Part shown: in pieces, positions 9,634 through 36,648 of the stretch
How the letters are laid out: each line of letters opens with the position of its first letter
Position numbering within the stretch: the stretch's first letter is position 1
NCBI GenBank assembly: GCA_028288675.1
Contig: JAQBNG010000201.1
Span: 1 to 44,013, forward strand
DNA from: Flavisolibacter sp.
GTDB lineage: Bacteria; Bacteroidota; Bacteroidia; Chitinophagales; Chitinophagaceae
Direction of reading: 5' to 3'
DNA: 44,013 nucleotides
The notes under the pieces: generated by a model
What the model saw: the letters and a program-made list of their open reading frames with translations, nothing else
The model's database searches: none
Told to the model about the DNA's origin: nothing
Made by a program: the position numbers and the translations under genes

Positions 9634-9657
9634 AGTTGTTATTGATACTCTTTTTAT

Positions 9658-10483: not shown

Positions 10484-10543
10484 CAAATATACCAGACATG
10501 GACAGGGGTGGTTGCTACTTTCTATTACATTTATGATACTATC
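10484..10543 (-). promoter_or_regulatory. Promoter/operator A (operon 1)
   Basis: On the minus strand: element 1 GATAGTATC (10543-10535), conserved spacer ATAAATGTAA, element 2 AGTAGCAAC (10519-10511), then the -7 box TATATTTG (10491-10484). The spacing is 24 bp between elements and 28 bp from element 2 to the -7 box, the same as in promoters B to E. No separate -33 TTTG is seen; element 2 overlaps that position, as expected for an activator-dependent promoter. Confidence 0.8.
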
Positions 10544-10556
10544 TTTCAATAGAAAG

Positions 10557-10570
10557 GCCTTATAAAAGGC
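10557..10570 (-). terminator. Probable terminator of operon 2
   Basis: Directly after the stop of the CBM9-like gene, the minus strand has a 5-bp inverted repeat (GCCTT, loop TTAT, AAGGC) followed by the pyrimidine-rich run CTTTCTATT. It separates operon 2 from promoter A, so its position suits a terminator although the stem is short. Confidence 0.4.
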
Positions 10571-10578
10571 GGACTTTT

Positions 10579-11247
10579 TCATATGAACATTTTTCCAAAA
10601 TAGGCAGGCTGATGAAAATCACGAATAGGATTGGGTATTGGGTTCCAAGCTAAGTAATGAGGCTCTAAAAGAGCATCACCACATTTATAGAAATTCACTT
10701 TGTAATAGTTGGCTGTAAACTGGCAAATGTTATTGAAACAAAAAACGGGTGGTGTTAAAACAAGTGTGAGCTCCCACAGAAAAGAGTTTGTTACGGGTGA
10801 AATTTTTTTCCACGTCACCCAGCGGTTAATAGAACAAATAGTTTCATCCGATAATTTTTTACGATTATTCCTGTCACTACCAAATGAAGCTAAACAAGTT
10901 CCCAAACTATTAAATTCAAAATTATAATACCCTCCGCTGTCATCCACTGCAATAAAAATTTCGACGCAGCTATCTTTAAAAACGGGGTCATTGGTTTGGC
11001 GATATACGGCTTGGTGAAACGCTTCACTTACATAAAATTTTACGAACAAAGCGGCTTCATTACAAGCTACCGTAAAACTTACTTCAGGCACATTGCTTAA
11101 TTCATCCCAGCAAATTTCTTTTATAGGATGTTTTGCCAATCTATCTAAGATCTCTGTGATTAAACTTTGGTTTGTAACATCAGGCATTGGCAGACGAACC
11201 GCTATTAGTTCCTTTGCCTTAAACTTTGTTTCTTGTACGTCTCTCAT
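10579..11247 (-). CDS. CBM9-like carbohydrate-binding domain protein
   Basis: A 222-residue protein matching the family 9 carbohydrate-binding fold found in Bacteroidota. After a segment ICWDELSNVPEVSFTVACNEAALFVKFYV it shows the typical DPVFKDSCVEIFIAVDDSGGYYNFEFNSLGTCLASFG region (rough residues 87-123) and a closing W-N-P-I...FHQPAYFGKMFI motif. No catalytic domain is attached. It has no recognisable signal peptide, although its fold usually works outside the cytoplasm. The ATG overlaps the GH20 stop codon by 4 bp (ATGA), so its translation is coupled to GH20. It is the last gene of operon 2 and probably recognises the same glycan or its fragments. Confidence 0.75.
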   Translation of the reverse strand: MRDVQETKFKAKELIAVRLPMPDVTNQSLITEILDRLAKHPIKEICWDELSNVPEVSFTVACNEAALFVKFYVSEAFHQAVYRQTNDPVFKDSCVEIFIAVDDSGGYYNFEFNSLGTCLASFGSDRNNRKKLSDETICSINRWVTWKKISPVTNSFLWELTLVLTPPVFCFNNICQFTANYYKVNFYKCGDALLEPHYLAWNPIPNPIRDFHQPAYFGKMFI

Positions 11248-12821
11248 TTTGCAGGGGTTAAAAGTGATGATCTCGTTTTAGTTACCCTGTTGTATAGCAC
11301 TTTAATATGCTGGCTCCGGACCATGTTTTCGTTTTGAAGCTCCTCCTCATAAAAAGTACTTCTATTTAGTGCTATAAAGCGTTTATCCAAATCTGCAGAC
11401 TTTGCCAGTATTCTTTTAAGCTTTAATGCTATTGCTTCATAGTCTGCAGTCGTCACGGTAGTTTCATTTAACTGATTTTCTACCAAATACGTTTCCAAGT
11501 ATTGTATTCTAATGTCTGCCATCAACTGAAAATGCGCATATTCCTCCGCTCCTTTTGTAGGTTTTAATTGGCGCAATGTTTTAGCCGCCATTACCGTACT
11601 ATCCAATACCTGCTGCACCGTTAGTGGATAGGGCGAAACTACTTTACCCTGCCTGATTTCGTAGTCGCAAACACTGATCGAAGCCCATAATTTTTTTGCT
11701 TCGACGGGTGTAAAGCCAAAGGTTTTTTGTGCATAGCGTTGTACAAATTCAAAAGTATTTAGGGCCGTATTCAACTGCAAACTTTCAAAAAATGCCTGCA
11801 GCGAAATGTTGTAGCCCGTAAAAGGATAGCGGTGTCCCCTTGGGTAAATTTCAATTATATCAAACGCACTATTAAATACAGGGTTGAATGTACCGTTAGT
11901 GGACCACGAGGTTAATACCATACCAGTGTAACCAATCTTTCTGGCCGTAGGTATAAAGTCTCTTAAATTATTAAAATGCAGATTCCATTGGGATAGATAA
12001 TAATTGTCAAATCCCGACCGAATAGCCGGTGCACCCCAAATTTCATAACCGCTTTTTAATAAATTATCCAGGTTGCCAAATTGGTTCAGGTTCCACCCGT
12101 AATTCCAATCAATAAACACCGTTTCTTTTGGTAATAGCTTTATGGCTTCGGGATGTTTTAAAGCAATATCCGCCCATAATACCGGTCGCTTACCAAGGCT
12201 GATTACTATGTCGCAAAGCATTTTTATATGATCGATATAAAGTTTTGACAAGCCCACTTCAGCCGCTTTCTTCTTGCACTTTTCGCAGTGCCCAAGCAGA
12301 TAGGTTTCATCGCCACCAATATGGAAATATTTCGAAGGATGTGTAGCGGCAAGCTCTTTAAATAAGTCGTTAAAGAGCAGTTTATTACCTTCTTCCTCAA
12401 CAGGGCAAACCTGCGAAAAATCCTTTGCATCCTCTCTAATGGATGCGAACCGGTAATTACGCAAAATATATTCAACATGCCCAAAGCTTTGCTGCAAGGG
12501 AATTACATCCATCCCAAGGTTTTTGCAAAAAAGAAGGAATGAGGTTATCTCCTCCTTTGTGTAAGAATACTGATTGGCTATAACCGGATATTTCTGAAAT
12601 GGAAAGGTGGCTTCCCATTCCATAATAAGCGTATTAATGCCATTGGCTTTAAGTTTTTGAACAAAGGCTTTAAGTGCAGGCATTTTTATAACCTGCATCC
12701 GTAGGTCAACATGATAGCCTTTCACCCCAAAATCTTTAGACACTGCTGTATTCGTTTGTGCGATTGAAACACCAAAACACAAAAGGTACCCGGTTAAAAT
12801 AAGCGATACAATTTTTTTCAT
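11244..12821 (-). CDS. GH20 beta-N-acetylhexosaminidase-like glycoside hydrolase
   Basis: A 525-residue periplasmic enzyme with a signal peptide ending near VSIAQ. The GH20 barrel starts around residue 33 (KGYHVDLRMQVIKM) and shows IPLQQSFGHVEYILR (108-121) and the catalytic pair D171-E172 in FHIGGDETYLLGHCEKC. In this family the Asp stabilises the substrate acetamido group and the Glu is the acid. The usual N-terminal GH20b domain is absent, as in other compact bacterial members, and about 170 residues after the barrel are helical. Its expected action is removal of terminal GlcNAc or GalNAc. It lies in operon 2, 54 bp after the transporter gene and overlapping the CBM9-like gene. Substrate linkage cannot be read from sequence. 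Confidence 0.88.
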   Translation of the reverse strand: MKKIVSLILTGYLLCFGVSIAQTNTAVSKDFGVKGYHVDLRMQVIKMPALKAFVQKLKANGINTLIMEWEATFPFQKYPVIANQYSYTKEEITSFLLFCKNLGMDVIPLQQSFGHVEYILRNYRFASIREDAKDFSQVCPVEEEGNKLLFNDLFKELAATHPSKYFHIGGDETYLLGHCEKCKKKAAEVGLSKLYIDHIKMLCDIVISLGKRPVLWADIALKHPEAIKLLPKETVFIDWNYGWNLNQFGNLDNLLKSGYEIWGAPAIRSGFDNYYLSQWNLHFNNLRDFIPTARKIGYTGMVLTSWSTNGTFNPVFNSAFDIIEIYPRGHRYPFTGYNISLQAFFESLQLNTALNTFEFVQRYAQKTFGFTPVEAKKLWASISVCDYEIRQGKVVSPYPLTVQQVLDSTVMAAKTLRQLKPTKGAEEYAHFQLMADIRIQYLETYLVENQLNETTVTTADYEAIALKLKRILAKSADLDKRFIALNRSTFYEEELQNENMVRSQHIKVLYNRVTKTRSSLLTPAK

Positions 12822-12875
12822 TTTCTTTTTTTGTAAGAGTAGCTAAATGTTTAGTACTGATTGTGCAACCAATCA

Positions 12876-14216
12876 TTATTGTAATTGGGAATCAAGGGCG
12901 AGCTTTTTGGTACGCCAGGAACGGAGCTTATGCCCGTACCAGGCATAAAAAAACAAATAAGAGTAGCAGGGAACAAGTACCCAATATCCAAGCCTTACAG
13001 AATGTCTGTCTGCAAAATACCCGTACAAAAGCGGCAAAATAGCGTTGCCGCACAAACCCATTATTAACAGCGAGGCCCCCTTTTTAGTATACCTGCCCAA
13101 ACCATCTAGCGCCAATGGCCAAATGCCTGCCCATATTAATGAATTCGCAAGGCCTAGCCCGACTATAAACCATATTGAAATATCGGTGTGATGGCCCAGT
13201 ACTGTTACACTTCCATGAGTGAAAATGATTAGAAAGCTAAAGAGCAAACCTAAGAGAGTGCAACATCTTAATGCGGTAACCTGACTAAGGAATTTAGGTA
13301 TAGTGGCAATGCCTGTAAGGTATCCACAGATAGTGGCAAATAATATATAGGAAGGAAACACTTTGGCTTCTAACAAACTAATGCCCATAGATCCTGCATA
13401 CCCAATTACAGTATCTATTGCAATCACCTGCGAACCTACGTGCAGAAATATAGCCAGTGCCCCTAAAACAAGATGGGGAAATTGTAAAATATTTTTCTTC
13501 CCGGAATTAACTACTGCTGTTTGTTCATCTTCTTTGCTTGTGTCTATTTCAGGCAATTTTGAAAAGCGCACAAATAAACCCAAACAAAACAAAATGGCGC
13601 TAACAATAGCATAAGGCATTACCACCCGTCGTATTAGTTCATTTAAAGCATCAGATTTTTGGGAAGAAGACAGAAGCGGCAGTTGCTTAAATAATGCACT
13701 ATCAGAAACTTTTAAAACCACAGCAGCAAATAATAATGGAGCCAGTATGCCTGCCGCTTTATTACAGATTCCCATTATGCTGATGCGGCGTGCGGCGCTT
13801 TCTTTTGGGCCTAATATAGTAACATACGGATTGGCGGCTGTTTGTAATATAGCCAACCCGGTGCCAAGTGTAAATAAGCCTAAAAGGAAAAGCACATACG
13901 TTCTTGACAAAGCAGCGGGAACAAAAATGAGAGCGCCTGCAGACATTACAAAAAACCCAATCATCATACCTCTTTTAAAACCAATTTTTTCGAGAAGGTA
14001 TGAGGCTGGCAAAGACATAATAAGGTAAGCGATATAAAAAGCAAAGGCTACCAGGTAGGATTGAAAATTAGTAAGCTCGCAGGCTATTTTGAAATAGGGT
14101 ATCAATATAGCATTGATCCAGGTAACAAACCCGAATACAAAAAACAATATGGCAATAATTGACAACGAACTGTTGGTGTTACGCGAAGAGAGTAGTGTGG
14201 TATTGTTGGCTGTCAT
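12876..14216 (-). CDS. FucP/NagP-type sugar:proton symporter (MFS)
   Basis: A 446-residue membrane protein with about twelve hydrophobic segments. It shows family marks of the FucP/GluP/NagP group: FGFVTWINAILIPYFK in helix 1, ANPYVTILGPKESAARRI after helix 4, and LANSLIWAGIWPLALDGLGRYTKKG late in the protein. Members import L-fucose, glucose/galactose or N-acetylglucosamine. Lying between NagA and a GH20 enzyme, it most likely imports the amino sugar released in the periplasm. It starts 9 bp after nagA. Just past its stop is a 6-bp hairpin (TGATTG/CAATCA, 12858-12875) in the gap before GH20 that might tune downstream expression. No sugar kinase is found near it. Confidence 0.85.
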   Translation of the reverse strand: MTANNTTLLSSRNTNSSLSIIAILFFVFGFVTWINAILIPYFKIACELTNFQSYLVAFAFYIAYLIMSLPASYLLEKIGFKRGMMIGFFVMSAGALIFVPAALSRTYVLFLLGLFTLGTGLAILQTAANPYVTILGPKESAARRISIMGICNKAAGILAPLLFAAVVLKVSDSALFKQLPLLSSSQKSDALNELIRRVVMPYAIVSAILFCLGLFVRFSKLPEIDTSKEDEQTAVVNSGKKNILQFPHLVLGALAIFLHVGSQVIAIDTVIGYAGSMGISLLEAKVFPSYILFATICGYLTGIATIPKFLSQVTALRCCTLLGLLFSFLIIFTHGSVTVLGHHTDISIWFIVGLGLANSLIWAGIWPLALDGLGRYTKKGASLLIMGLCGNAILPLLYGYFADRHSVRLGYWVLVPCYSYLFFYAWYGHKLRSWRTKKLALDSQLQ

Positions 14217-14225
14217 TTATTTGTT

Positions 14226-15389
14226 TTATTCAGGATGGCAAGAGTACACTTTCAGTCCATTTTTATAGGTTGCTGAAACGGTAAGCTGCTTATCCTTATA
14301 TCTAAAAAGTACGAGGTCAGCCAGGCTGCCTGGAGCTAAACCAATTTGGTGAGGTTTACTTAAAAAACGGTTTGGATTAAGTGATGCCATATCCCACGCA
14401 TCCCCCAAACTAAAAAGACTTTGCTGATATAAATTCTGGACACCTTTAAGCAGTGTTTGCCCTGATCCGGCTAAAGTGGAAGGCTTGTCTTTCAGATGTA
14501 ATTTACCAGCAGCGGTTAGTACCACATTTCCACCTACAGATGTTTCATAATTGCCTGGCGGCATTCCCGCAAGACTCACACAATCACTTACAAGTATAGT
14601 ATTGTCCCCTTTTACTTTTGCTATTATTTTCATCACCGAAGCGGGTAAATGAAAACCATCGCCAATAAAGCAGGCATGAAGGCGATCATCTGCCAACTGA
14701 TCCCAAATGTAATTTGGATGCCGCGGTAATACAGCATGAGTTGCGTTTCCGAGATGTGTTGACAATGTAGCACCTGCTTCTACTACATCAGCAATCTGTT
14801 TAGCACTTGCGGCTGTATGGCCAATTGAAACAACAATGCCCAAGGACACACATTTCCTAGTAAACGCAGGCGCCTCAGGCCATTCCGGTGAAAGTGTAAT
14901 TATTTTGATCCTTTCGCCCGATGCATTATAAAACTCTTCAAAAAGGTTCCAATCAGGCGCTTGCACAAATTGTTTATCATGTGCACCAACCGGTCCTTCT
15001 TCAAGCGATATGAACGGACCCTCTAAGTGGATGCCGCCAATAGAACTGTTTACCATTCCGGACTCAAGACAGGCCTTATCTATATTGCGTAAACAAGAAA
15101 TAAAATTTTTATAGCTGTTTGTTATAACAGTAGGATAGTACAAGGTGATCCCCTGGCCAAATAATAAAGAAGTGATGGCAACAACATCTTGTGTGGTTAA
15201 AAAAATCCTGTTGAAATCTACACCCTTAAAGCCATTTATCTGCAGATCAACTAAACCCGGTGCTATATAAGGTAGGTCTTGATTGTTGCTCCCTGCCAAT
15301 GAAGCAATATCACTAATGAAGCCCTTTTCTATTACAACTTTTATAGGCTGCCCCGAACGATAATGTATTCCTTCAATGGTCTGCATCAT
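14226..15389 (-). CDS. nagA: N-acetylglucosamine-6-phosphate deacetylase
   Basis: A 387-residue cytoplasmic amidohydrolase of the NagA family, which removes acetate from GlcNAc-6-phosphate. Visible marks are APGLVDLQINGFKGVDFN (43-60, with Q-x-N in place of H-x-H as in E. coli NagA), metal ligand E123 in HLEGPFIS, H191 in SIGHT, H212 in STHLGNATHAV, and the catalytic Asp269 in LVSDCVSLAG. The usual THLFNAM motif reads THLGNAT here, a small departure near the metal site. It overlaps the upstream nagB-like gene by 17 bp, so the two are translated together in operon 2. A second ATG three bases downstream could also be the start. A related N-acyl amino-sugar phosphate remains possible as substrate. 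Confidence 0.88.
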   Translation of the reverse strand: MMQTIEGIHYRSGQPIKVVIEKGFISDIASLAGSNNQDLPYIAPGLVDLQINGFKGVDFNRIFLTTQDVVAITSLLFGQGITLYYPTVITNSYKNFISCLRNIDKACLESGMVNSSIGGIHLEGPFISLEEGPVGAHDKQFVQAPDWNLFEEFYNASGERIKIITLSPEWPEAPAFTRKCVSLGIVVSIGHTAASAKQIADVVEAGATLSTHLGNATHAVLPRHPNYIWDQLADDRLHACFIGDGFHLPASVMKIIAKVKGDNTILVSDCVSLAGMPPGNYETSVGGNVVLTAAGKLHLKDKPSTLAGSGQTLLKGVQNLYQQSLFSLGDAWDMASLNPNRFLSKPHQIGLAPGSLADLVLFRYKDKQLTVSATYKNGLKVYSCHPE

Positions 15390-16167
15390 TAAATCGTTTT
15401 AATGGCATTTGACTGTATGCTTCTTTATCGGTGTACATCATACAATTGGGATGACGGCGCAAAATGGATGCAGGACAGGCTGTTGTGACATCGCCTGTCA
15501 GCATATTTTTCACTGCAGTGCTTTTTCTGTTTCCCGGAACAGTACAGAATAAATACTTACCCGATAGCAAGATCGGAATGGTGAGTGTCAGCGCCTCTTT
15601 TGGAACTTCTTCTAAGCGAGCAAAGCATCCGTCATTAACCTGCTGTTGCCGACAAACTTCGTCTAGTGTGACAACTTTTATTATTTCAGTGTCATCAAAT
15701 TTCGCATCCGGGGGGTCGTTAAAAGCAAGATGCCCGTTTTCTCCAATACCAAGGCAAACAATATCTAAAGTTGCCTGCTGTAATTGAGTTTTATAACTCA
15801 ATCGTGCGGCTTCTTGTCCTTCCGTATCATCAATCAGATGTACACGTCGTGGGGCTACTTTTTGAAAAAGATGCTTTAGTAAAAAAGAGGAAAACCGTTG
15901 TGGCGCACCGGTTGGCAAGCCCATATATTCATCCATGTGAAAAACGTCAATTCGCTGCCAATCAATAGTTGTATCGATTGATAGATGACGAAGTAATTCA
16001 TTTTGAGAAGGTGCAGCAGCAAACACAATACGTACAACATCTTGTTGTTTCAATAATTTTGTTATGCATTCAACAGCATCTTTGCCTGCGGCGGCCCCCA
16101 TTTCTTCACGGGAGAAGAATACCTTAACTTCCAATAAATCAACTTTACTTTTAAGTATAGGGCCCAT
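15373..16167 (-). CDS. Glucosamine-6-phosphate deaminase-like protein with altered active-site acids
   Basis: A 264-residue member of the NagB/6-phosphogluconolactonase superfamily. It has D79 in HMDEYMGL, the equivalent of the proton-transfer Asp72 of E. coli NagB, and the loop GIGENGHLAFNDPP (140-153). By alignment to the E. coli loop NDGHIAFNEP, Asp141 becomes N144, His143 is kept as H146, and Glu148 becomes D151. This ENGHLAFND pattern marks a NagB subgroup distinct from the enteric enzyme. The reaction is likely sugar-phosphate deamination/isomerisation, but substrate or mechanism may differ. It is the first gene of operon 2, starting 60 bp after the -7 box of promoter B, and it overlaps nagA. 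Confidence 0.8.
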   Translation of the reverse strand: MGPILKSKVDLLEVKVFFSREEMGAAAGKDAVECITKLLKQQDVVRIVFAAAPSQNELLRHLSIDTTIDWQRIDVFHMDEYMGLPTGAPQRFSSFLLKHLFQKVAPRRVHLIDDTEGQEAARLSYKTQLQQATLDIVCLGIGENGHLAFNDPPDAKFDDTEIIKVVTLDEVCRQQQVNDGCFARLEEVPKEALTLTIPILLSGKYLFCTVPGNRKSTAVKNMLTGDVTTACPASILRRHPNCMMYTDKEAYSQMPLKRFNDADH

Positions 16168-16226
16168 ATACTGATAGTGTGTTAAGGCTTTAATTAACGA
16201 TTCTATTTTTAAGAAGTAACAGCTAC

Positions 16227-16286
16227 CAAATGTAAATCCTGCGGTGCGGCCGATGTATTACTTTCAGCCACATTTATGGTATTATT
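16227..16286 (-). promoter_or_regulatory. Promoter/operator B (operon 2)
   Basis: On the minus strand: element 1 AATAATACC (16286-16278), spacer ATAAATGTGG, element 2 AGTAATACA (16262-16254), -7 box TACATTTG (16234-16227). Spacing is 24 and 28 bp, as in A, C, D and E. Element 1 begins only 10 bp after the stop of the SGNH gene, so operator and the end of operon 3 nearly touch. Confidence 0.8.
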
Positions 16287-16295
16287 CTTCAAATA

Positions 16296-17423
16296 CTATT
16301 TGGCTAATAGCTTCTGCAACAGTCTGAGATAAGCCATAGCATAACGCAGCATGCCCAAGTCTGTAGGATGAATACCATCAACCATCGTATCCATATCCTG
16401 CTGCAATTCTTTCATCGACAATAAGCTGATTGCCTCCTCACCACGAGATTGTAGAGCAGTGAAAGCCTGACGGTTAATGCGGTTTGCCAGCAAGTGTCCT
16501 GCACGTTTTACCGGATTGATTTCTGCATCGGTATAGCCGAAATGATCCGTTAATACAATTGGCGTTTTTGGATGTTTAGTTCTGATTTGATTTACTGCAT
16601 TGATGATGCGGGTATAAATTTCTGCTTCAGTAAAACTTGCCTTGCCCCCTGCCATGTTAGGTAGACAATCTAGTATAAAAACCTGTGCATCTATTTCATT
16701 TATTAAACCTATTACTTCTTTATCTAACCGGCCGGAACCAGAAAAACCAAGGTTAACAATAGGTAAATTTATTTTACGTGATAGTATAGATGTCCAGGCC
16801 ATACCGGGTCGTGATGCGCAGGCACCTTGCACTATAGAGGTTCCGTACACTACAATAGGCTTGATGTTTCTTGCGGGTAATGGTACAAAATGACTATTAT
16901 CAGGCGTTCCCACTTCCAGCCATTTAACGGCATTATAAAGCGGCAAATACAAGCAGTATTCAATACCGGTTGTAGCATTGCTGTTTACCGGCTTCAAATT
17001 AGTAAAGACATATTCGATAGTGTCTTTAAAAACATATTTACCGGCACACCATAAAAAGTTTCCCTTTGCATCTTTCCCATAGAGATCTATACCGCTTACT
17101 CCAGTGGCTGGCATGTGTGGCATGGCAAGGGGGCCTTCAACTGCATACCGGATGGTAATTTGTGCGGCATTTGTTTGAAACCGTATCACCAGGCCTGCTG
17201 TCTGAGTGGATAGCTTCCAAATTTCCGGCAACACTTCCTGTTCTACCCGTTTTGGTAGACGGTGGTAAGTTGTTATTTCTTCCCCGGTCCAGCCCTGCCC
17301 TTCCGTTGCGTTGAAAGAATTTTTTGCAGGATTCCACCAAGTTAAATTAGCATTGTTCTGTGCCGCTGAAATACTGCTTACCACACTAAATAGCCATACA
17401 ATATTTAATCTTGTCCATTTCAT
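16296..17423 (-). CDS. Secreted GxDLY-SGNH hydrolase (carbohydrate esterase-like)
   Basis: About 375 residues. I prefer the ATG at 17423 over an in-frame GTG two codons earlier; both give a signal peptide ending near ISAAQ. An N-terminal jelly-roll with the GxDLY motif (SGIDLYGKDAKGNFLW, about 110-125) precedes an SGNH/GDSL-like domain: nucleophile Ser196 in VVYGTSIVQG, the Gly block in LGFSGSG, Asn256 in CLPNM, and the Asp349-His352 pair in VDGIHPTDLG. Proteins of this design are esterases that remove acyl groups from sugars in the periplasm. It follows the Asp-box protein gene by 32 bp at the end of operon 3 and may strip ester decorations before the glycosidases act. Confidence 0.82.
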   Translation of the reverse strand: MKWTRLNIVWLFSVVSSISAAQNNANLTWWNPAKNSFNATEGQGWTGEEITTYHRLPKRVEQEVLPEIWKLSTQTAGLVIRFQTNAAQITIRYAVEGPLAMPHMPATGVSGIDLYGKDAKGNFLWCAGKYVFKDTIEYVFTNLKPVNSNATTGIEYCLYLPLYNAVKWLEVGTPDNSHFVPLPARNIKPIVVYGTSIVQGACASRPGMAWTSILSRKINLPIVNLGFSGSGRLDKEVIGLINEIDAQVFILDCLPNMAGGKASFTEAEIYTRIINAVNQIRTKHPKTPIVLTDHFGYTDAEINPVKRAGHLLANRINRQAFTALQSRGEEAISLLSMKELQQDMDTMVDGIHPTDLGMLRYAMAYLRLLQKLLAK

Positions 17424-17455
17424 TTTCACGAACTTATTTAATACTAATAGCTGGT

Positions 17456-18616: not shown

Positions 18617-18629
18617 AAAATTATTTTTA

Positions 18630-18668
18630 ATATAAGGATAGCGGTGTGTTGCACCGCTATCCTTATAT
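18630..18668 (-). terminator. 17-bp stem-loop between susD and the Asp-box gene
   Basis: A perfect inverted repeat with 17 bp in each arm (5' arm 18630-18646, 3' arm 18652-18668) and a 5-base loop. It starts 24 bp after the susD stop and ends 13 bp before the next ATG. The arms contain the core GGATAGCGGTG/CACCGCTATCC. The minus-strand tail is A/T-rich (TTAAAAATAAT) but not a clean U-run, so partial termination or mRNA 3'-end protection is as likely as full termination. This arrangement would lift susCD mRNA above that of the downstream genes. Confidence 0.8.
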
Positions 18669-18692
18669 GATTTAAACAATAAAAGTTTTAAT

Positions 18693-20189: not shown

Positions 20190-20199
20190 AACAAACAAA

Positions 20200-23493: not shown

Positions 23494-23502
23494 TTAAAAT
23501 TT

Positions 23503-23510
23503 AGGAGGTG
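23503..23510 (-). promoter_or_regulatory. Anti-Shine-Dalgarno-like sequence in the susC leader
   Basis: The susC mRNA leader contains CACCUCCU ten bases before the first AUG (ATCACCTCCT if extended), matching the 3' tail of 16S rRNA rather than its complement. Chance is possible; the match is noted because it falls exactly where a ribosome-binding site would lie. Confidence 0.3.
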
Positions 23511-23544
23511 ATTAAGTAATAAACAGTCTAAAGCTTGATCTTGA

Positions 23545-23604
23545 CAAATCTACTTGAGCGTATTTCAATCCGTTGCTATTTTCCTTTACATTAATGGTAC
23601 TATT
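23545..23604 (-). promoter_or_regulatory. Promoter/operator C (susCD operon)
   Basis: On the minus strand: element 1 AATAGTACC (23604-23596), spacer ATTAATGTAA, element 2 AATAGCAAC (23580-23572), -7 box TAGATTTG (23552-23545). Spacing is 24 and 28 bp, the same as in A, B, D and E. This is the copy in which the two elements look most alike (AATAG-Y-A-n-C), suggesting a direct repeat read by a dimeric or AraC-type protein. Confidence 0.82.
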
Positions 23605-23697
23605 ATTCAGTTTCGTTGGCTTGCATGGAGTATAACTTTATTGTCGATTTTGTCTTATAAAAAAGTACAGCACTGTTGTCAGGCCAAAGAATTTTCG

Positions 23698-24813: not shown

Positions 24814-24833
24814 ACTTTATTGCCTTTTTAGAA

Positions 24834-26195: not shown

Positions 26196-26219
26196 TGTAA
26201 AAGAGAATTAAAATGGCTA

Positions 26220-28273: not shown

Positions 28274-28322
28274 GAAAGAGATTTTTTCTGCATTCGATGA
28301 AGCAGGTTATATTTTAGTATGG

Positions 28323-29627: not shown

Positions 29628-29674
29628 AATGGAAGTTTGATAAAAACATCTTAGTGTGTCTTTGGAAGCACGAA

Positions 29675-30664
29675 TTATAAATCTTTATTTGCCACGAATT
29701 TTTTGGAAGGATATTTTTCAGCTAGCCGATCAATGTCTTTGTTGAAACAAGCAAAAGCGGCTTGCCATTCTTGGCCTTCACAGCTGTTGTACTCATAAAA
29801 CCCTTGGCCTGTTTGTGTACCTTTTGCCTGCATGTCAATCATTCTTTGCATCATCAGCGGAACACTTTCACTATTGTCTAATTGCGGTAAAATATTTTTA
29901 AGAGTTTCCAGCATATTTTCCAAACCCATATAATCCATTCGCCTGAAAACGCCCATCAATGTCATCCACGATCCGGCGTCATACCGGAAAGCTTTATCCA
30001 TATCCTCTATTGTAGCTACTCCCCTGTCGGCCAGTGATAGGGCTTCGCGGTAAACTGCATACATTAGCCGGTTGGTAACAAAACCCCTGATGTCTTTTTT
30101 TAGCAAGGTTGGTTCCTTGCCCCAAAAATGGGCCACTTCATACACCCAATCCGCATATCGTATTTGAGTTTGATCGCCACAGGTAATTTCTAGAAAACGG
30201 GTCATGTAGGCAGGTTCTGCCCAGTGTATGCCTAAAAATCTTTCGGGACAGGGTACATAATTCTGAAGTATGCTGATAGGAATGGCCGAAGTATTGCTGG
30301 CTATAATAGTAGTGCTTGAAACTGCACTGCTAATTTTAGCATACACTTCTTTTTTTATTTTCGGTTGTTCAATAACACATTCTAAAACTATACGGCAACA
30401 GTCCAGATAATTGTAATTATCCGATACTGTTAGTTTTTTTAAATAATGCCCTACCGGGTGGCACAGTAAACCGGCTTCATCACAATGCAAAAGTTGCTGT
30501 TTGATCCTTTGAGGGGCTTCCTTCAATTCTTCCGAAAGGGGAGTTATAGCAACTACAGGATGGCCGGAGACTAATAAGGCGACCGCGATACTACTCCCCA
30601 TTAAACCTATACCAACAACGCCAATAGATATTTCCTCCGGATGCATCTTATTAGTCATCAGCAT
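29675..30664 (-). CDS. 3-hydroxyacyl-CoA dehydrogenase-family NAD-dependent dehydrogenase
   Basis: About 329 residues from the ATG at 30664, which shares one base with the RidA stop (TAATG) and so is preferred over an upstream in-frame TTG. Intact motifs are GIGLMG (18-23), S123-N124-T125-S126, catalytic H147 in GIHWAEPAYMTRFLE, and N198-R199 in GFVTNRLMYA. The HWAEP signature and the single short C-terminal domain set it apart from fatty-acid enzymes and suggest a free hydroxy acid or amino-alcohol-type substrate. It is the second gene of operon 4 and the likely active partner of the motif-less paralogue encoded at 27299-28273. The reaction is expected to be NAD-linked oxidation of a secondary alcohol. 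Confidence 0.87.
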   Translation of the reverse strand: MLMTNKMHPEEISIGVVGIGLMGSSIAVALLVSGHPVVAITPLSEELKEAPQRIKQQLLHCDEAGLLCHPVGHYLKKLTVSDNYNYLDCCRIVLECVIEQPKIKKEVYAKISSAVSSTTIIASNTSAIPISILQNYVPCPERFLGIHWAEPAYMTRFLEITCGDQTQIRYADWVYEVAHFWGKEPTLLKKDIRGFVTNRLMYAVYREALSLADRGVATIEDMDKAFRYDAGSWMTLMGVFRRMDYMGLENMLETLKNILPQLDNSESVPLMMQRMIDMQAKGTQTGQGFYEYNSCEGQEWQAAFACFNKDIDRLAEKYPSKKFVANKDL

Positions 30665-31050
30665 TATGTAATTATTGCAACACAATCAATTTCAACTTTT
30701 ATTCCTTCTGCCAGTACCGACTGAACTGTGGTTCTTGCTGGCTTTATACCTGGGAAATAAGTTGCGTATACTGCATTATAACGATCAAAATCTTTTATAT
30801 CGGCAAGATGCACGGTACATTTAAGTACCTGCTCCATGGAACTGCCTGCCGTTTCCACTATAGCTTTTATATTCTGTAGTGTACGATGTGTTTCTTCTTC
30901 AATGGAGCCTAAAATAAAAACGGATGTTTTAAAATCGACGGCAGCTTGTCCACTGACGTATAGGAACCGGTCGACAATAACACCATCGGAATAGGCGCCA
31001 GTAACAAATGATGGATCACGGTGAGGATGAACTACTTTTATTTTTTGCAT
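30664..31050 (-). CDS. RidA-family enamine/imine deaminase
   Basis: A 128-residue YjgF/YER057c/UK114-type protein. It has FLYVSGQAAVD (29-39), the catalytic R106 in KPARTTVQ and E120 in VEIDCVAI. RidA proteins speed the hydrolysis of reactive enamines and imines released by PLP enzymes to keto acids and ammonia. Being first in operon 4 fits its role as protector of the two PLP enzymes encoded further along. The start is 41 bp after the -7 box of promoter D, and its stop overlaps the next ATG, so translation is coupled. Confidence 0.9.
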   Translation of the reverse strand: MQKIKVVHPHRDPSFVTGAYSDGVIVDRFLYVSGQAAVDFKTSVFILGSIEEETHRTLQNIKAIVETAGSSMEQVLKCTVHLADIKDFDRYNAVYATYFPGIKPARTTVQSVLAEGIKVEIDCVAIIT

Positions 31051-31090
31051 AGTAAAAAGTACATTGTTTTATAGAGGTAAAGCCTGTTTT

Positions 31091-31150
31091 CAAAAGTACC
31101 TTTCGCCACATAATACAGGTACTACTTTTGGTTACATTTATAATACTATT
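31091..31150 (-). promoter_or_regulatory. Promoter/operator D (operon 4)
   Basis: On the minus strand: element 1 AATAGTATT (31150-31142), spacer ATAAATGTAA, element 2 AGTAGTACC (31126-31118), -7 box TACTTTTG (31098-31091). Spacing is 24 and 28 bp, as in the other full copies. Element 1 here is also centred in a perfect 6-1-6 palindrome, ATAATA-G-TATTAT (31140-31152). The remainder of 31151-31237 shows no clear signal. Confidence 0.82.
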
Positions 31151-31237
31151 ATTCACTATAAACTACAGCGGAGCAATAAACTTTTAAAGTAGAATGATTA
31201 CAATCTTTGATGGGATGGGCGAGTATTGAATCAACTA

Positions 31238-32026
31238 TTACCAGCAGTTCCACCCACCATCCACATGTAAATTTTGGCCGGTAATATAAGAGGCGGCATC
31301 TGATAATAAAAAAGCAACAGCACCGGCTATCTCGGACGATTTTCCTACACGGCCCAACGGCGTTTTATTGGATAAACGCTTCATAAATTCCGGGGCTTTT
31401 TGTTCCACATCAGGATTAGGAAACGGGCCTGGTGAGATAGCATTGAACCGTACATTATTCCGCCCCCAATGGACGGCAAGATAACGTACCATTTGAATAA
31501 TGCCTGCTTTAGTAACACCATATTCTATTGGGTTTTTATTCATAGGTTCTTCGTACAGCGCCGGGTCTGGCGATAAGGAACCATACATGCTTGAAAACAG
31601 TACCATGCTTCCTCTGCCAGCTTCCGCCATGCGGGCACCCACTTCTCTTGCAAGCAAAAAAGAGGAGGTTAAGCTACCATGGCTTACTCTGTCAAAATCC
31701 TGTTCTGTCAGCTCATCCAATTTTTTTGCGGTTGATGCATAAGTAAGATTTACTACTCCGTGAGGTATGCCTGTTTCTTTAACACCATTAGCTACGAAGT
31801 CTTTAAATAACCCGCAATCATATATGTCAAGTGTAGCGGCTCGCACCTGTTTAGATAATCCTTCAGTACTAATAAAGTGCTGACTGCGGTCATCAAGGTC
31901 AATACAAAGCACCTGCGCACCCGCTGCTACCAGTAGTTTTATGGTAGCTTGGCCAAGATAACCGGCGCCACCAAAGACCCATATATCTTTACCCTTGAGG
32001 CTTAAAATAGTTGTTTCATTTTTCAA
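31238..32026 (-). CDS. Short-chain dehydrogenase/reductase, TTG start
   Basis: A 262-residue classical SDR. The cofactor loop is GGAGYLG (19-25), and the active-site residues Ser145 or Ser146 (LFSSMYGS), Tyr169 and Lys173 (EYGVTKAG) are all in place; it ends with SYITGQNLHVDGGWNCW. The only plausible start is a TTG at 32026, 14 bp after the previous stop; no in-frame ATG lies near. It probably oxidises or reduces a sugar or sugar-acid hydroxyl. It is the last gene of operon 5, directly after a second SDR gene whose catalytic lysine is missing, so this one may be the working enzyme of the pair. Confidence 0.85.
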   Translation of the reverse strand: MKNETTILSLKGKDIWVFGGAGYLGQATIKLLVAAGAQVLCIDLDDRSQHFISTEGLSKQVRAATLDIYDCGLFKDFVANGVKETGIPHGVVNLTYASTAKKLDELTEQDFDRVSHGSLTSSFLLAREVGARMAEAGRGSMVLFSSMYGSLSPDPALYEEPMNKNPIEYGVTKAGIIQMVRYLAVHWGRNNVRFNAISPGPFPNPDVEQKAPEFMKRLSNKTPLGRVGKSSEIAGAVAFLLSDAASYITGQNLHVDGGWNCW

Positions 32027-32040
32027 TTGCCAAAGTATTA

Positions 32041-32817
32041 TCAGGCGTTCAAACCGCCGTCCATTAAAATGTTTTCGCCGTTGATATAGGCACCCGCTTC
32101 AGAGGATAGTAATACCACCAACCCTTTTATGTCATCCTTATTAGCCATGCGTTTAAGTGGCACTTTTTTACAGTAGTTATTCAAAAAAGCTTCTGGCTGA
32201 TGATTAAAAAGCCCACCGGGAGAAATACAATTTACCCGTACATTTTTGCCGGCAAGCACTTGCGCCATATACCGGGTAAGGTTAAGTAAACCAGCATTAT
32301 GAAAAAAATAATCGGGTGGTGGTGTGCCCATTTCCGTTCCTTCATAATTTGACAGATCGGGACCAAACATTCCCATCATAGAGCCGATATTTACGATGCT
32401 TCCGCCACCGTTGGCGACAATTAGCTCAGCCATTTCCCGAAGAATGTCCATCGAGCCGGTTGCATTAACCTGCATAGATTCAGCAAAATCGGTGATAGCA
32501 CTATCATAGCCTTTCATTGGTCTGGATACGGCGTTATTAATGAACACATCCAGCTTTTTGAATTTTTCAAGGAGTTGTTTTTTGAGTTGTAAAACCGATT
32601 GATGATCGCCTTGATCAAGGCATAAAGCATATACATCAAGATCCCTTGCCCGAAAGCTTCGGGCCACTTCGTTTGCATGATCTATGTTACGGGATGCAAT
32701 GATTACCGTGGCATCTGCTTCCGCCAATCCTTCTACAATACATTTGCCATAATTACCGGCGCCACCGCTCACAAGTATTACTTTATTTTTAAGGCTGAAC
32801 AATTCTTTAATGTGCAT
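32041..32817 (-). CDS. Short-chain dehydrogenase/reductase lacking the catalytic lysine
   Basis: A 258-residue SDR with cofactor loop GGAGNYG (18-24), NNAVSRP (94-100), Ser146 in NIGSMMGMFGPD and Tyr170 in PPPDYFFHNAG. The YxxxK motif reads Y-F-F-H-N: the lysine that binds the ribose and lowers the tyrosine pKa is Asn174. The rest of the fold, including VRVNCISPGG and YINGENILMDGG, is well conserved. Either the enzyme works slowly or differently, or it serves as a partner of the SDR encoded 14 bp downstream. Operon 5, 35 bp after the Gfo/Idh/MocA oxidoreductase gene. Confidence 0.83.
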   Translation of the reverse strand: MHIKELFSLKNKVILVSGGAGNYGKCIVEGLAEADATVIIASRNIDHANEVARSFRARDLDVYALCLDQGDHQSVLQLKKQLLEKFKKLDVFINNAVSRPMKGYDSAITDFAESMQVNATGSMDILREMAELIVANGGGSIVNIGSMMGMFGPDLSNYEGTEMGTPPPDYFFHNAGLLNLTRYMAQVLAGKNVRVNCISPGGLFNHQPEAFLNNYCKKVPLKRMANKDDIKGLVVLLSSEAGAYINGENILMDGGLNA

Positions 32818-32852
32818 CGTTTGTAGTGTATATAAAATAAACTTTACTGAAG

Positions 32853-33776
32853 TTAAAAAGGGAAAGTGATGATTTTTCCGCCCTGATACAAACTTTCTTT
32901 AGCGGCAATCAGGGTGCGAATCACGTTTTCTGTTTTAGCAAAATCAAGTCTAGCTTTACCCTCCTCTACCGAACGTACAAACTCAATAATATTATCGCGA
33001 AACATTGAATATGAATTTTTGATTTCTATCTGCCGCCACCCTTTTTGCCCAAAAACCGATATTTGAAAAGTGGGTGAAATCTCCATAAATAAATTAATGA
33101 TTACCTGTAAGCCTCCGGCAAAGGTGAGGTGCACTATATCTTTGCCTTCTTCGCCTATATGTTGTACTGTAAGCGGACGATTATCATCCAAAAGCATAAG
33201 TACAGCTTCCAGCATGTGCACGCCATATTTCATCCAATCTTTTTTGCCTGTGGCGGTAACCAATTCCAGTTGGCCAAGAGCCGCAAATTCTGTTCTAGCG
33301 GTACGAACTTCTGTTGCATAACGCATAGAGGAACAGGACATAATCAGTTTACCTTCCCTGGATTTTTTTGAGAAATAATCCAAATCTTCTACAGTACAAG
33401 TCAGTGGCTTATCAATAAATACTGGCAAACCGGATTCTATAAAAGGCTGTACCATTTTTACATGATTTTGCGCGTCATCCCGGAGAAGCATTACAGCATC
33501 AACATGGCCGATCATTTCTTCTGCATTTTCGGTCACATTGGCTATACCACTGCTAAGGGCAATACTTTGCGATATATTGAGATCTTGGGTCCATACATGG
33601 CTAACCTGTACGCCTGTTATACCTAAGGTATCGCTGTTGGCGTGTAAATAGGCAGCAACCGCGGGATAACCAATACGGGAGATTTCATCACCGTTGAAAT
33701 GTCCATTAATAATCGAGGCCCATGAATAAGGATGTGCGTTACCTTCACTCATACCTAAAATTCCTATTTTAATCAT
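32853..33776 (-). CDS. Gfo/Idh/MocA-family oxidoreductase
   Basis: A 307-residue NAD(P)-dependent oxidoreductase. It opens with GILGMSEGNAHPYSWASIING instead of the classical GxGxxG, a variant seen in a subgroup of the family. The catalytic lysine is K123 in VFIDKPLT (usual EKP reads DKP), and a YGVHMLE segment fits the position of the active-site histidine. Members oxidise or reduce sugar or cyclitol hydroxyls, often at C1, C2 or C3. Within operon 5 it is accompanied by an aldo/keto reductase and two SDRs, implying a multi-step redox conversion of one sugar or sugar acid before aldol cleavage. Confidence 0.83.
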   Translation of the reverse strand: MIKIGILGMSEGNAHPYSWASIINGHFNGDEISRIGYPAVAAYLHANSDTLGITGVQVSHVWTQDLNISQSIALSSGIANVTENAEEMIGHVDAVMLLRDDAQNHVKMVQPFIESGLPVFIDKPLTCTVEDLDYFSKKSREGKLIMSCSSMRYATEVRTARTEFAALGQLELVTATGKKDWMKYGVHMLEAVLMLLDDNRPLTVQHIGEEGKDIVHLTFAGGLQVIINLFMEISPTFQISVFGQKGWRQIEIKNSYSMFRDNIIEFVRSVEEGKARLDFAKTENVIRTLIAAKESLYQGGKIITFPF

Positions 33777-33807
33777 ATTAAATTTTACTGCTGATTACAA
33801 TACAAGA

Positions 33808-34764
33808 TTACCGTAGCCATCCTTCTTTATCCCAATTAGGCAAATCTAAAAAAACCGGATCCGGATAAGCTAAGTCCTGAGCTTTTTTCAGCAACTGTGA
33901 ACTCATATATTCTCCATTGGCAGCTTCGATAGATTGTTGCAGGTACTTTAGCCGATCGATACCAACGAGTATAGAACTTACCTGTGAGAAAGACAAAGCG
34001 AAGCGGGTAGCCAATGTTGAGAGGTTTACGCCCATTTCTTTTATCAGCATGTTGTAAAGTGCTAAATGATTCTCCACATTGCGTAAAGCAGGATGGAGGT
34101 TTTTACCCTTTTCGCTTAACAATCCTTTGGATAATACCGAACGGATAATGAGCCCTACACCTTTTTGATACGCCTTATCAAACAATACCGATTGCCGCTG
34201 GTCCATCAAGTTAAAAGGCACCTGTATCACATCCCATACACCGGCATCAATAGCTAATTCAGTTTGATTATTCGTATAGGTAGACACGCCGGTAACCCTT
34301 ATTAGCCCGGCTCTTTTCAGTTCACTAAAAATAGTTTGAACGTCTTTATTCAGCAGTATCCGCAAATCTGCCTGGTGTAACATAAAGATGTCCACATAAG
34401 TGGTTTGCAAGGCAGCTAAACTTTCTTGTAAGGAACCCTCGATCATTTCTTTCAGCTCATCATAAGCAGGAATATTTCCGTTACTGTCCTGAAAGTGTTT
34501 ACACTTGGTGGCGAGAATAACTTCGCTTCGAACTTCCTTAAAAGCCTTGCCTATAATGACCTCGCTGGCGCCGTACATACGAGCTGTATCAAAAAAATTT
34601 ATCCCTTTTTGTAAAGCGGTTTGAAGCAGGTGTATCGCTTCGGTTTCGGTAAGCATATCTGCCGCAGACACTACACCTAAACCATAGGGCATACCAATTT
34701 CCACACAGCCAAATGCCAGTTCTGATACATGCAAACCTGTAGCACCCAACGCTCTTTTAATCAT
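33808..34764 (-). CDS. Aldo/keto reductase, aldose 1-dehydrogenase-like
   Basis: A 318-residue AKR with the full tetrad: D59 and Y64 in FFDTARMYGASE, K87 in LATKCKH and H130 in IFMLHQAD. The start KRALGATGLHVSELAFGC and length suit the group containing L-fucose, L-galactose or other aldose 1-dehydrogenases, although general carbonyl reductases share these features. Followed by a sugar-acid aldolase-type gene upstream and a Gfo/Idh/MocA gene downstream, oxidation of a free aldose to its lactone is a plausible first step; no lactonase or dehydratase of the usual pathway is seen nearby. Operon 5, 21 bp after the aldolase gene. Confidence 0.83.
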   Translation of the reverse strand: MIKRALGATGLHVSELAFGCVEIGMPYGLGVVSAADMLTETEAIHLLQTALQKGINFFDTARMYGASEVIIGKAFKEVRSEVILATKCKHFQDSNGNIPAYDELKEMIEGSLQESLAALQTTYVDIFMLHQADLRILLNKDVQTIFSELKRAGLIRVTGVSTYTNNQTELAIDAGVWDVIQVPFNLMDQRQSVLFDKAYQKGVGLIIRSVLSKGLLSEKGKNLHPALRNVENHLALYNMLIKEMGVNLSTLATRFALSFSQVSSILVGIDRLKYLQQSIEAANGEYMSSQLLKKAQDLAYPDPVFLDLPNWDKEGWLR

Positions 34765-34785
34765 GCTGCTTATTTTTCATACAGT

Positions 34786-35586
34786 TTATTTATAGCTTTC
34801 AAGCCCCGATTCTTTTTTACTACTTGAGTTGCTAAACTTATTTAGTAAACCGTTGCAATAGGCCGACATTCCTACCACATCGGCTCCAATATTAATAAAC
34901 TGGTAACCCATGTCCTTAAACTCTTCTAACTTATCTATGCTACCGGTAGTGGCAGCAAACTTGCCATGTTTTTTTGCCACCGCAGCCACCTGAATCCTAG
35001 CATCCAGCAGCAAAGGATTGTTCCAATCTCCGGGAGCGCCGATGCTTTGGCTAAAATCGCCAGGGCCAAAAAACAGCATATCAAATCCATCCAGTGCCGC
35101 TATTTTATCCAGCTCCTGCAACGCTTCTGCATCTTCTATTTGAAACACTACGAAACGCTGTGTATTTGCTTGCTGCAAGTAGTCTTTAAAATTCATGTTA
35201 GTGTAACCGCCATCTGCGCTTCCGCCATCAATAGCGCGACGGCCCATTGGATGAAAGCGGGTGTATTCGATTACCTTTTTCGCGTCTTCTTCGTTCATTA
35301 CGTGCGGCACTAAAATTCCGGTCGCATCCAGTTCCAAAGGCTTGACGTAATCGCTGTAGCTCCCACGTGGAATGCGTACCATTAAATCGGTATCATGTGC
35401 TTTGCTGGCCCAAACATGCGCACTATAAACAGACCAATCTTGCGCCAGATGCTCCCTGTCAACCCACACACAATCAAAACCACTCATGGCTGCTATTTCC
35501 GTGGATACGGCATCGGCGATATTTACCTTAAAGCAACAAGCCGTTTCGCCTGCACGCAACTTTTTTAATACTTTACTTTGTCTCAT
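34786..35586 (-). CDS. HpcH/HpaI-family aldolase (2-keto-3-deoxy-sugar-acid type)
   Basis: A 266-residue class II aldolase. Conserved residues are D43-x-E45-H46 in WVDREHLAQD, R71 in VRIPRG, metal ligands E151 in FQIEDAEAL and D177 in GPGDFSQSIG. Family members split 2-keto-3-deoxy acids (glucarate, rhamnonate or 4-hydroxy-2-ketoheptanedioate types) to pyruvate and an aldehyde. It probably ends the sugar-acid branch of the regulon. The final 15 residues (SNSSSKKESGLESYK) form a polar tail outside the fold. It starts 35 bp after the HEAT-repeat gene in operon 5. Confidence 0.85.
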   Translation of the reverse strand: MRQSKVLKKLRAGETACCFKVNIADAVSTEIAAMSGFDCVWVDREHLAQDWSVYSAHVWASKAHDTDLMVRIPRGSYSDYVKPLELDATGILVPHVMNEEDAKKVIEYTRFHPMGRRAIDGGSADGGYTNMNFKDYLQQANTQRFVVFQIEDAEALQELDKIAALDGFDMLFFGPGDFSQSIGAPGDWNNPLLLDARIQVAAVAKKHGKFAATTGSIDKLEEFKDMGYQFINIGADVVGMSAYCNGLLNKFSNSSSKKESGLESYK

Positions 35587-35621
35587 TTATTATGGTTGTT
35601 TGCCGATGGTTTTATCTATTG

Positions 35622-36536
35622 TTATCGTTTGTAGAGAAAAATCTTTAGCAGTGCATTGGCTGCCGCCACTCTTACATCAGTATTTTCATTGGCCAATAAC
35701 TTTTTCAAAACCGGAATATCCATTGCAGTACCTCTAATGCCTAAGCCTTCTGCCACTTCGTACTGCTGGCCAATTTCGCCGTCTGCATATTTTAATAAAA
35801 GAGCTTTTGATCGGGGCCGTTCTTTTGCAGAATCGTGTACAAATAGACAACTGGCAACATAAACCCTTGCGGCATCATCTTGTTTCAAACGCAGCAGGCA
35901 TTCATTTAATCGCTTCATTGTTTGTGCCGAAATTTTTGATTTAAAACGCAACGCATAAGCTGCATATCTATAGTCATTAATTTCGTTTGATAATAGTAAT
36001 TCAGACAACCGGTTTTCCAATGCAAGGGACTTATTATTAGAAAGCACCCAGCGGGCCATTGCTTTAAAGCCACCAGTGCCTGTATCTGCATAGTTGATTA
36101 TTTGAGGCGACGGGGTTTTGTATCCTAACTTTCCCAGGCTTTCCAAAGCTGTTAGCCGAGTCTTTATGCCGGCACCGCTGGTAAATTCGTTTTCCAACTG
36201 TTTTATATAGCGATGAAACTTTTGAGGATATTGCTTATTTAAACGGGCCAACACTCTTGCTGAACCTATAAAATTTTCAGGCGCCGCTTTTTGCAGTTGT
36301 AAAAACTGCACTTCCAGTCCAGATGTATGCTTGTGATAAATGAGGTTTTCAGCAGCATGTACTTTAATGAAAAAGGTTTCTCCGTTACTGACTGCCTCGT
36401 TAAGAACCTGCAGACAATTTTTAATATCCGTTTTATGCTGCCCAAGCATCTTATTACCTGCCAACATACAAGTAAACATTAAAAAAAGCCGCATTGTTTT
36501 TTGCATCGCATGTTTTAGTACCACCGGTCGTGCCAT
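35622..36536 (-). CDS. Exported HEAT-repeat protein
   Basis: A 304-residue protein. Three in-frame ATGs are possible (36536, 36506, 36494); all lead into a hydrophobic signal (MRLFLMFTCMLAG), so export is likely. The mature part is alpha-helical with HEAT-like units, clearest at the C-terminus (DIPVLKKLLANENTDVRVAAANALLKI) and near KTRLTALESLGKLGY and YRYAAYALRFK. No catalytic motif is seen. HEAT modules of this sort often accompany polysaccharide utilisation enzymes as scaffolds or as fragments of larger glycan-related proteins. It is the first gene of operon 5, directly behind promoter E. Its exact role is unknown. Confidence 0.7.
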   Translation of the reverse strand: MARPVVLKHAMQKTMRLFLMFTCMLAGNKMLGQHKTDIKNCLQVLNEAVSNGETFFIKVHAAENLIYHKHTSGLEVQFLQLQKAAPENFIGSARVLARLNKQYPQKFHRYIKQLENEFTSGAGIKTRLTALESLGKLGYKTPSPQIINYADTGTGGFKAMARWVLSNNKSLALENRLSELLLSNEINDYRYAAYALRFKSKISAQTMKRLNECLLRLKQDDAARVYVASCLFVHDSAKERPRSKALLLKYADGEIGQQYEVAEGLGIRGTAMDIPVLKKLLANENTDVRVAAANALLKIFLYKR

Positions 36537-36588
36537 TTTTTAGGTAATCGTATCGTAAAAGAGCAAGTGTTACAACCCTTCTACCTGT

Positions 36589-36648
36589 CAAAAGTAAATT
36601 TGATCGGCAGGGATTTATGCTATTTTTCAATGTATTTATAATACTATT
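36589..36648 (-). promoter_or_regulatory. Promoter/operator E (operon 5; divergent with the DHDPS-like gene)
   Basis: On the minus strand: element 1 AATAGTATT (36648-36640), spacer ATAAATACAT, element 2 AATAGCATA (36624-36616), -7 box TACTTTTG (36596-36589). Spacing is 24 and 28 bp, as in A to D. The site lies in the 177-bp gap between divergent genes and could serve both. For the plus-strand gene a weaker pair, TTGT near 36658 and TATACTTA at 36683-36690, may form the promoter. Confidence 0.8.

Follow-up and report, generated by a model that had tools for sequence, protein, structure and literature searches.

We describe a composite of operator and promoter that precedes five minus-strand operons in a 44,013-nucleotide stretch of Flavisolibacter sp. 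(Chitinophagaceae; GCA_028288675.1, contig JAQBNG010000201.1, forward strand, positions 1-44,013; hereafter the window). The five copies listed in a preliminary description of this DNA are confirmed: direct reading and alignment on the box showed, at each site, a conserved motif of about 34 bp followed at one constant distance by the -7 box TAnnTTTG. The five sites are most likely operators of the AraC-family protein encoded in the same window, which would act as a class II activator of a catabolic regulon of 28 genes plus araC. The binder, activation rather than repression, the ligand and the transcription starts are what we infer from the sequence. Because the same switch stands before all five operons and, in many relatives, is again found next to the gene for the same regulator, the five neighbouring gene groups very probably form one jointly controlled nutrient-use set.

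Five composite sites in the window

The motif common to the five sites is GAAnaATArTAyyATaAATgtannnrAAArTAryA, and the 30-mer starting at its ATArTA begins 51 bp upstream of the box in all five cases. The boxes were located by direct reading and alignment, the five operators by matrix and pattern scans, and the regulator gene by Pfam, a structure model and ortholog scans.

1046..1912, minus strand: AraC-family regulator, 288 amino acids, likely binder, last gene of operon 1
10484..10491, minus strand: -7 box of operon 1, TATATTTG
10513..10546, minus strand: operator 1, with putative direct half-sites ARTAYYA (10534-10540) and ARTARYA (10513-10519), 21 bp apart
16227..16234, minus strand: -7 box of operon 2, TACATTTG
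16256..16289, minus strand: operator 2
23545..23552, minus strand: -7 box of operon 3, TAGATTTG
23574..23607, minus strand: operator 3
31091..31098, minus strand: -7 box of operon 4, TACTTTTG
31120..31153, minus strand: operator 4
36589..36596, minus strand: -7 box of operon 5, TACTTTTG
36618..36651, minus strand: operator 5

The 5' T of each box was found on the minus strand exactly where the preliminary description had placed it (10491, 16234, 23552, 31098 and 36596), and the spacings given there, 24 bp from element 1 to element 2 and 28 bp further to the box, are exact at all five sites. When leave-one-out matrices of 38 columns were built with the -7 box excluded, each left-out site outranked all positions of the window on both strands, save the four training sites. 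A refined matrix, with the five sites in its training set, gave them 31-39 bits, compared with 5.7 bits for the next best position in the window.

The Flavisolibacter genome (254 contigs, 4,738,586 bases; 4.74 Mb) was scanned with a pattern for the 30-mer at up to three mismatches. Five matches were obtained, all in the window, and one in the reversed control. A looser pattern that included the -7 box, derived from these sites, returned the same five matches only. Neither random scatter nor sites before housekeeping genes, the two outcomes named at the outset as incompatible with a regulon, were seen in this genome. The bare TAnnTTTG box is uninformative by itself, with 1465 + 1425 occurrences in the genome. 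GH28- and GH106-type genes (window 37744-42089, same strand) adjoin the regulon and are devoid of an operator; the best position there, close to 42400, reaches 5.7 bits.

The minus-strand genes between 1046 and 36536 have five upstream gaps wider than 100 bp (128-204 bp), all other gaps being at most 100 bp. As each of the five wide gaps holds one site, and as the boxes end 40-70 bp before the first start codon in all five operons, the sites coincide with operon starts.

Recurrence beside orthologs of the regulator

A contig scan with an alignment of six orthologs gave, for the best 80 of 90 matches, 79 distinct loci with 60-70% identity. These loci (1,462,758 bases; 1.46 Mb) were used for an independent test, with a matrix built from the five window sites alone and the box columns left out. 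With a threshold of at least 25 bits, the matrix found 50 sites and the reversed control none; lowering it to 13 bits gave 98 and 3. In the 98 sites TAnnTTTG started at +51 in 49 cases, at +52 in nine, and at none of the remaining 42 offsets in the range of +31 to +74, and none of the three control matches had a box at +51. This clustering of boxes at two offsets, together with the nearly empty control, is strong evidence that motif and box act as a functional pair. The fixed spacing proposed earlier thus extends to relatives, where the box may also stand one base pair further from the motif but at no other tested distance.

The refined matrix was iterated on the same ortholog loci, so that its counts are partly circular; it was used for the anatomy of the sites and not for the claim of non-randomness. 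For the refined-matrix, anatomy, first-gene, per-locus, unboxed-site and -33 scans, more extended stretches of the contigs concerned (L070-L078) took the place of L120, L124 and L155; L069 and L079-L081 were left out, and sites with too little flank were discarded. The motif (at least 16 bits) was present in 64 of the 79 loci, and motif plus box in 53, covering 21 of 27 genus-level labels. By order, motif plus box occurred in 28/30 loci of Cytophagales, 15/25 of Sphingobacteriales, 8/20 of Chitinophagales, 2/3 unplaced loci and 0/1 of Saprospirales. The loci are not independent of each other, Larkinella (8), Cyclobacterium (8), Dyadobacter (7) and Sphingobacterium (9) being over-represented. 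The presence of the composite beside the ortholog in these 53 loci strongly supports the initial proposal that one operator/promoter type serves the five operons under the local AraC. In 57 of the 79 loci a site of at least 14 bits lies within 500 bp upstream of araC, pointing away from it in all 57, and in 49 of these loci the site is 41-77 bp before the araC start codon.

Two variants of the arrangement were observed. Tandem operators, 83-319 bp apart, precede the 3HCDH operon in Cyclobacterium, Lunatimonas and Pleomorphovibrio (L093, L095, L098, L099, L100, L103, L108, L109, L159), with a perfect -7 box at the proximal operator only. The box stands at +56 (counted on the 34-mer; +55/+56 on the 34-mer are the same places as +51/+52 on the 30-mer) before the RidA/3HCDH operon in Dyadobacter, Runella and Spirosoma (L114, L130, L136, L138, L140, L142, L143, L147, L160), and the second half-site of these operators is slightly different.

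The specificity of the composite was quantified in 195 genomes, including that of Flavisolibacter itself. Seven of them (own genome included) have an AraC match at 59-100% identity, and the next best among the matches listed has 47%. Because the motif-only pattern was noisy at three mismatches, with matches in 39 genomes and frequent matches in the reversed control too, the composite pattern was used. It yielded, at up to three mismatches, 34 places in 20 genomes, and 10 places in the reversed control. All seven ortholog genomes (at least 59% identity) contained it, at 20 places, compared with 13 of the 188 others, at 14 places, a number close to that of the reversed control. The 11 composites with zero or one mismatch were all in five ortholog genomes (G000 5, G044 2, G046 2, G003 1, G097 1), and of the three places with two mismatches, two were in a further ortholog genome, G169, and one in G106. 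Furthermore, 23 loci of AraC paralogs (85,660 bases) yielded one match, of 20.2 bits and without a box.

These distributions bear on the question of whether the adjacent araC is a mere bystander, the sites being bound by another protein such as an AraC paralog, a hybrid two-component system (HTCS) regulator or some other factor. Relatives do carry many AraC paralogs, and excerpts of PMC3878776 describe HTCS motifs that are likewise direct repeats of about 21 bp. However, the composite tracks this ortholog among the genomes, the site lies beside araC in most ortholog loci, the paralog loci are nearly empty, and a group around Daejeonella and Pedobacter has different regulon genes, yet its site is still beside the same araC. 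Another binder is therefore quite unlikely.

Anatomy of operator and promoter

The anatomy set comprised 72 of 79 sites, with distinct motif sequences, full flank and a box at +55; a further 11, in which the box stands at +56, were listed separately. Their consensus is TGAAAAATAGTAYCATAAATRTAAATAAAAGTARYAG, followed by about 20 hardly conserved bases and TAnTTTTG. Similarity sums for direct-repeat registers over the 72 sites were 14.15 for 21 bp, 7.95 for 24 bp, and at most 6.4 for the others between 15 and 29 bp. The motif columns taken alone hardly distinguished 21 bp (0.84) from 24 bp (0.88). An imperfect direct repeat of 21 bp is the best reading of the half-sites. The 24-bp step between elements 1 and 2 is thus correct as a spacing, whereas as a biological repeat register it was rejected on the basis of the sums.

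All five window sites carry the TAnnTTTG box of a Bacteroidota primary-sigma promoter. Passages of PMC7366714 and PMC9723704 present this type of -7 box as the ordinary primary-sigma consensus; the latter place it at -12 to -5 in flavobacteria, and the former state that a -33 TTTG was not identified in F. johnsoniae. A -33 TTTG was found at none of the 72 boxed sites at spacers of 15-27. At spacers of 17-22, TTTG occurred in 8 cases among 83 other promoter-like boxes of the ortholog loci; because it is this rare elsewhere, its absence is not diagnostic and was rejected as proof of activator dependence. The preliminary description had seen such dependence in the missing -33 TTTG and in element 2 covering its position: the absence and the overlap are borne out, the diagnostic value is not. 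By position, the arrangement matches that expected for class II activation, with the putative downstream half-site over the upstream promoter element and the box at a fixed distance.

The same anatomy speaks to two further explanations. The fixed distance to the start region could mean that the motif is itself part of an alternative-sigma promoter and not an operator. This is extremely improbable, as the box is the ordinary primary-sigma one (PMC7366714, PMC9723704, in the passages cited), as a direct repeat of 21 bp that extends to about -63 is too long and too far upstream for sigma contact, and as copies of the motif lacking a box exist beside araC. The location of all five promoters on one strand within 26 kb might also suggest that they are alike through recent duplication of a promoter segment, and not through selection. 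However, the 20 bp between motif and box are hardly conserved in the 72 distinct sites, and across three orders the composite, with its spacing unchanged, stands before different genes; duplication is thus close to refuted.

Proposed mechanism

In the mechanism that we propose, an AraC dimer would bind two direct half-sites, ARTAYYATAAATRTA on the upstream and ARTARYAG on the downstream side, spaced by 21 bp or two helical turns. With the box at about -12 to -5, the half-sites would extend roughly from -63 to -47 and from -42 to -26. The downstream half-site would then cover the place of the -33 contact of the primary sigma factor, as in class II activation, and the rigid distance between motif and box is what would be needed for the activator to touch RNA polymerase. 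All five operons would be switched on together by an inducer, probably a glycan breakdown product, that binds in the cupin-like N-terminal domain. With its gene at the end of operon 1, AraC would also raise its own level.

Part of this geometry would equally suit a repressor or dual-function site, at which AraC covers the -33 region and blocks RNA polymerase until a ligand releases it. The downstream half-site does lie over that region, and many sites are located between araC and a divergent operon. Nevertheless, a fixed register of 51/52 bp is needed for contact and not for simple blocking. Moreover, most AraC-family proteins that combine a cupin domain with direct repeats of 21 bp adjoining the promoter are activators. 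We regard repression as unlikely and retain class II activation by the local AraC.

Several observations weigh against this assignment. No motif of at least 16 bits was found in 15 of the 79 ortholog loci within the stretches examined, and 41 of the 130 motif sites at this threshold lack a perfect box at +55/+56. Thirty of these 41 lie within 500 bp upstream of araC, facing away from it, and likely reflect autoregulation or tandem binding; the other 11 do not and are left without that explanation. The repeat finder (6-base seeds), applied to sites 1 and 5, detected no direct repeat in either, and an inverted repeat, of nine bases, in site 1 only; from this, and from the motif columns that barely separate 21 from 24 bp, the half-sites are taken to be short and imperfect. 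G106, a genome without an ortholog, holds one composite at two mismatches. Three stretches of G169 (60 kb; two come from the contig that carries the ortholog) contain no composite, the three composites of this genome being located elsewhere, with 2-3 mismatches. Finally, the absent -33 TTTG is uninformative, and the partial circularity of the iterated matrix leaves the five-site matrix as the independent test.

The AraC-family regulator

In the local AraC, Pfam detected HTH_18 above the cut-off (E 7e-23, residues 206-284), in line with a C-terminal double helix-turn-helix (HTH), and the N-terminal part had no Pfam match. An AlphaFold model based on 32 orthologs (mean pLDDT 79.3, pTM 0.63) shows a cupin-like N-domain and two HTH motifs. 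In a Foldseek search full-length AraC-family proteins matched the model with TM scores of about 0.5, and its N-domain matched the regulatory or sugar-binding domains of AraC (2arc) and RhaR (5u93) with TM scores by target of 0.57-0.63. The model thus predicts an N-terminal cupin-like domain for effector binding and dimerisation. Classification as an HTCS regulator was rejected: the protein has 288 amino acids, and Pfam gives only AraC HTH families and no histidine kinase or receiver domain. In a tree of the AraC proteins the orders are intermingled; as 8 of the 29 inner branches are open, no conclusion on transfer was drawn.

Operons, regulon content and pathway

The five operons are composed as follows.

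1046..10413, minus strand: operon 1, 7 genes: PhyH, NHL, MFS, BNR, FG-GAP and 3HCDH, then araC beyond a 100-bp gap
10579..16167, minus strand: operon 2, 5 genes: NagB-, NagA-, MFS-, GH20- and CBM9-type genes
16296..23493, minus strand: operon 3, 4 genes: SusC, SusD, BNR (sialidase-like), GDSL esterase-like
23698..31050, minus strand: operon 4, 7 genes: RidA, 3HCDH-type, class III aminotransferase, 3HCDH-type, M19 dipeptidase, ceramidase-like, D-threonine/3-hydroxyaspartate aldolase-like
31238..36536, minus strand: operon 5, 6 genes: HEAT-repeat, HpcH/HpaI aldolase, AKR, Gfo/Idh/MocA and two SDRs

Together they hold 28 genes plus araC, 29 in all, by our own choice of open reading frames (ORFs), which is consistent with the regulon of at least 24 genes expected at first. 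The SusD ORF as called overlaps SusC by 113 bp (window 20200-20312), and its true start is probably further downstream. Near the contig end, an ORF at window 43123-43659 matches an IS116/IS110-type transposase.

On the opposite strand, a gene of the DHDPS family (NanA/DapA-like, below the cut-off; window 36714-37649) starts about 60 bp from operator 5. It was excluded from the regulon because no TAnnTTTG of its own lies between operator 5 and its start. In the relative G003 its homolog is on the same strand as homologs of SusC, SusD and NHL and comes after them, so that it may belong to the pathway.

The 130 sites, the five of the window included, were grouped by the first gene that follows. 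The RidA/3HCDH operon accounted for 47, susC for 20, PhyH for 5, HpcH and the ceramidase-like gene for 4 each, NagB and MFS for 2 each, and five genes for one each; 41 first genes had no match to a protein of the window. With tblastn, the modules RidA-3HCDH-aminotransferase-3HCDH-M19-ceramidase-like and HpcH-AKR-Gfo-SDR were found around many orthologs. In the group of Daejeonella, Pedobacter and Sphingobacterium, the same site precedes not the RidA cluster but an MFS gene, NupG-like by eye. It thus seems that the operator was retained when the regulator came to control other targets. The operator is tied more tightly to the regulator than to the pathway, and this supports the regulator as binder.

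The NupG-like MFS gene was seen in L113, L129, L137, L144, L145, L148, L149, L150, L152 and L158, and its operator is, except in L113, the one directly upstream of the matched araC. In the two loci annotated, L150 and L152, the next gene is Gfo/Idh-like by eye. In Dyadobacter (L114, L140, L142) a boxed operator stands before a gene that resembles histidinol dehydrogenase by eye, a possible further member of the regulon.

Pfam and NCBIfam assign enzyme families and no pathway name, and among the NCBIfam matches listed only RidA, with a subfamily model, passes the cut-off. A literature search on this gene set found nothing relevant and no named substrate. With low confidence, the GH20-, NagA- and NagB-type genes point to an N-acetylhexosamine, the BNR proteins to a sialidase-like activity, and the module of RidA, aminotransferase and M19 to an amide- or amino-bearing component. 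Taken together, the composite could mark where a catabolic pathway not yet described is controlled, one for a glycan component that bears an amide or amino group; we put this joint reading forward as conceivable and somewhat short of probable. Such a pathway would be common to Cytophagales, Sphingobacteriales and Chitinophagales and governed by one ligand-sensing AraC, whose 51-bp register to the -7 box of the primary sigma factor hardly varies. In it, uptake by SusCD and sialidase-like enzymes would be joined to the modules of RidA, class III aminotransferase, two 3HCDH-type enzymes and M19 amidase, and of HpcH, AKR, Gfo and SDR.

Relation to known systems

In E. coli, AraC binds direct half-sites 21 bp apart beside the araBAD promoter. 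The local protein shares with it the cupin-like N-domain and the two HTH motifs, its model matching the structures 2k9s and 2arc. However, E. coli AraC works with sigma-70 promoters of the -35/-10 type, whereas a Bacteroidota primary sigma factor with a -7 box is concerned here.

Three systems of Bacteroidota are closer, each known to us from parts of the publications cited. RhaR of Bacteroides belongs to the AraC family and has a 21-bp direct repeat before catabolic operons (PMC3870299), but it controls a different regulon, that for rhamnose, and was compared by description. The same article reports, in the part concerned, that its AraC groups have unique motifs. The HTCS of Bacteroides thetaiotaomicron have an AraC-type DNA-binding domain, and direct repeats averaging 21 bp stand before their polysaccharide-utilisation operons (PMC3878776), whereas the local protein is a one-component regulator. 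CgrA (ZGAL_3159) of the Zobellia carrageenan regulon is, as deletion supports, a single AraC-family activator of a catabolic gene set; the substrate and the order are different, and the likeness rests on the regulator and not on an operator motif (PMC5698469).

The kind of system, with 21-bp repeats of AraC or HTCS regulators in Bacteroides, is thus known, and this regulator, motif and regulon are new. No report of any of the three was found in the literature covered, which excluded most subscription journals and regulon databases. In summary, a widespread catabolic gene set gains a regulator and a motif, and the inducer, once found, would name the pathway. The 72 distinct natural promoters, with their near-fixed distance between site and box in three orders, would also offer an unusually clean case of an activator working with the primary sigma factor of Bacteroidota.

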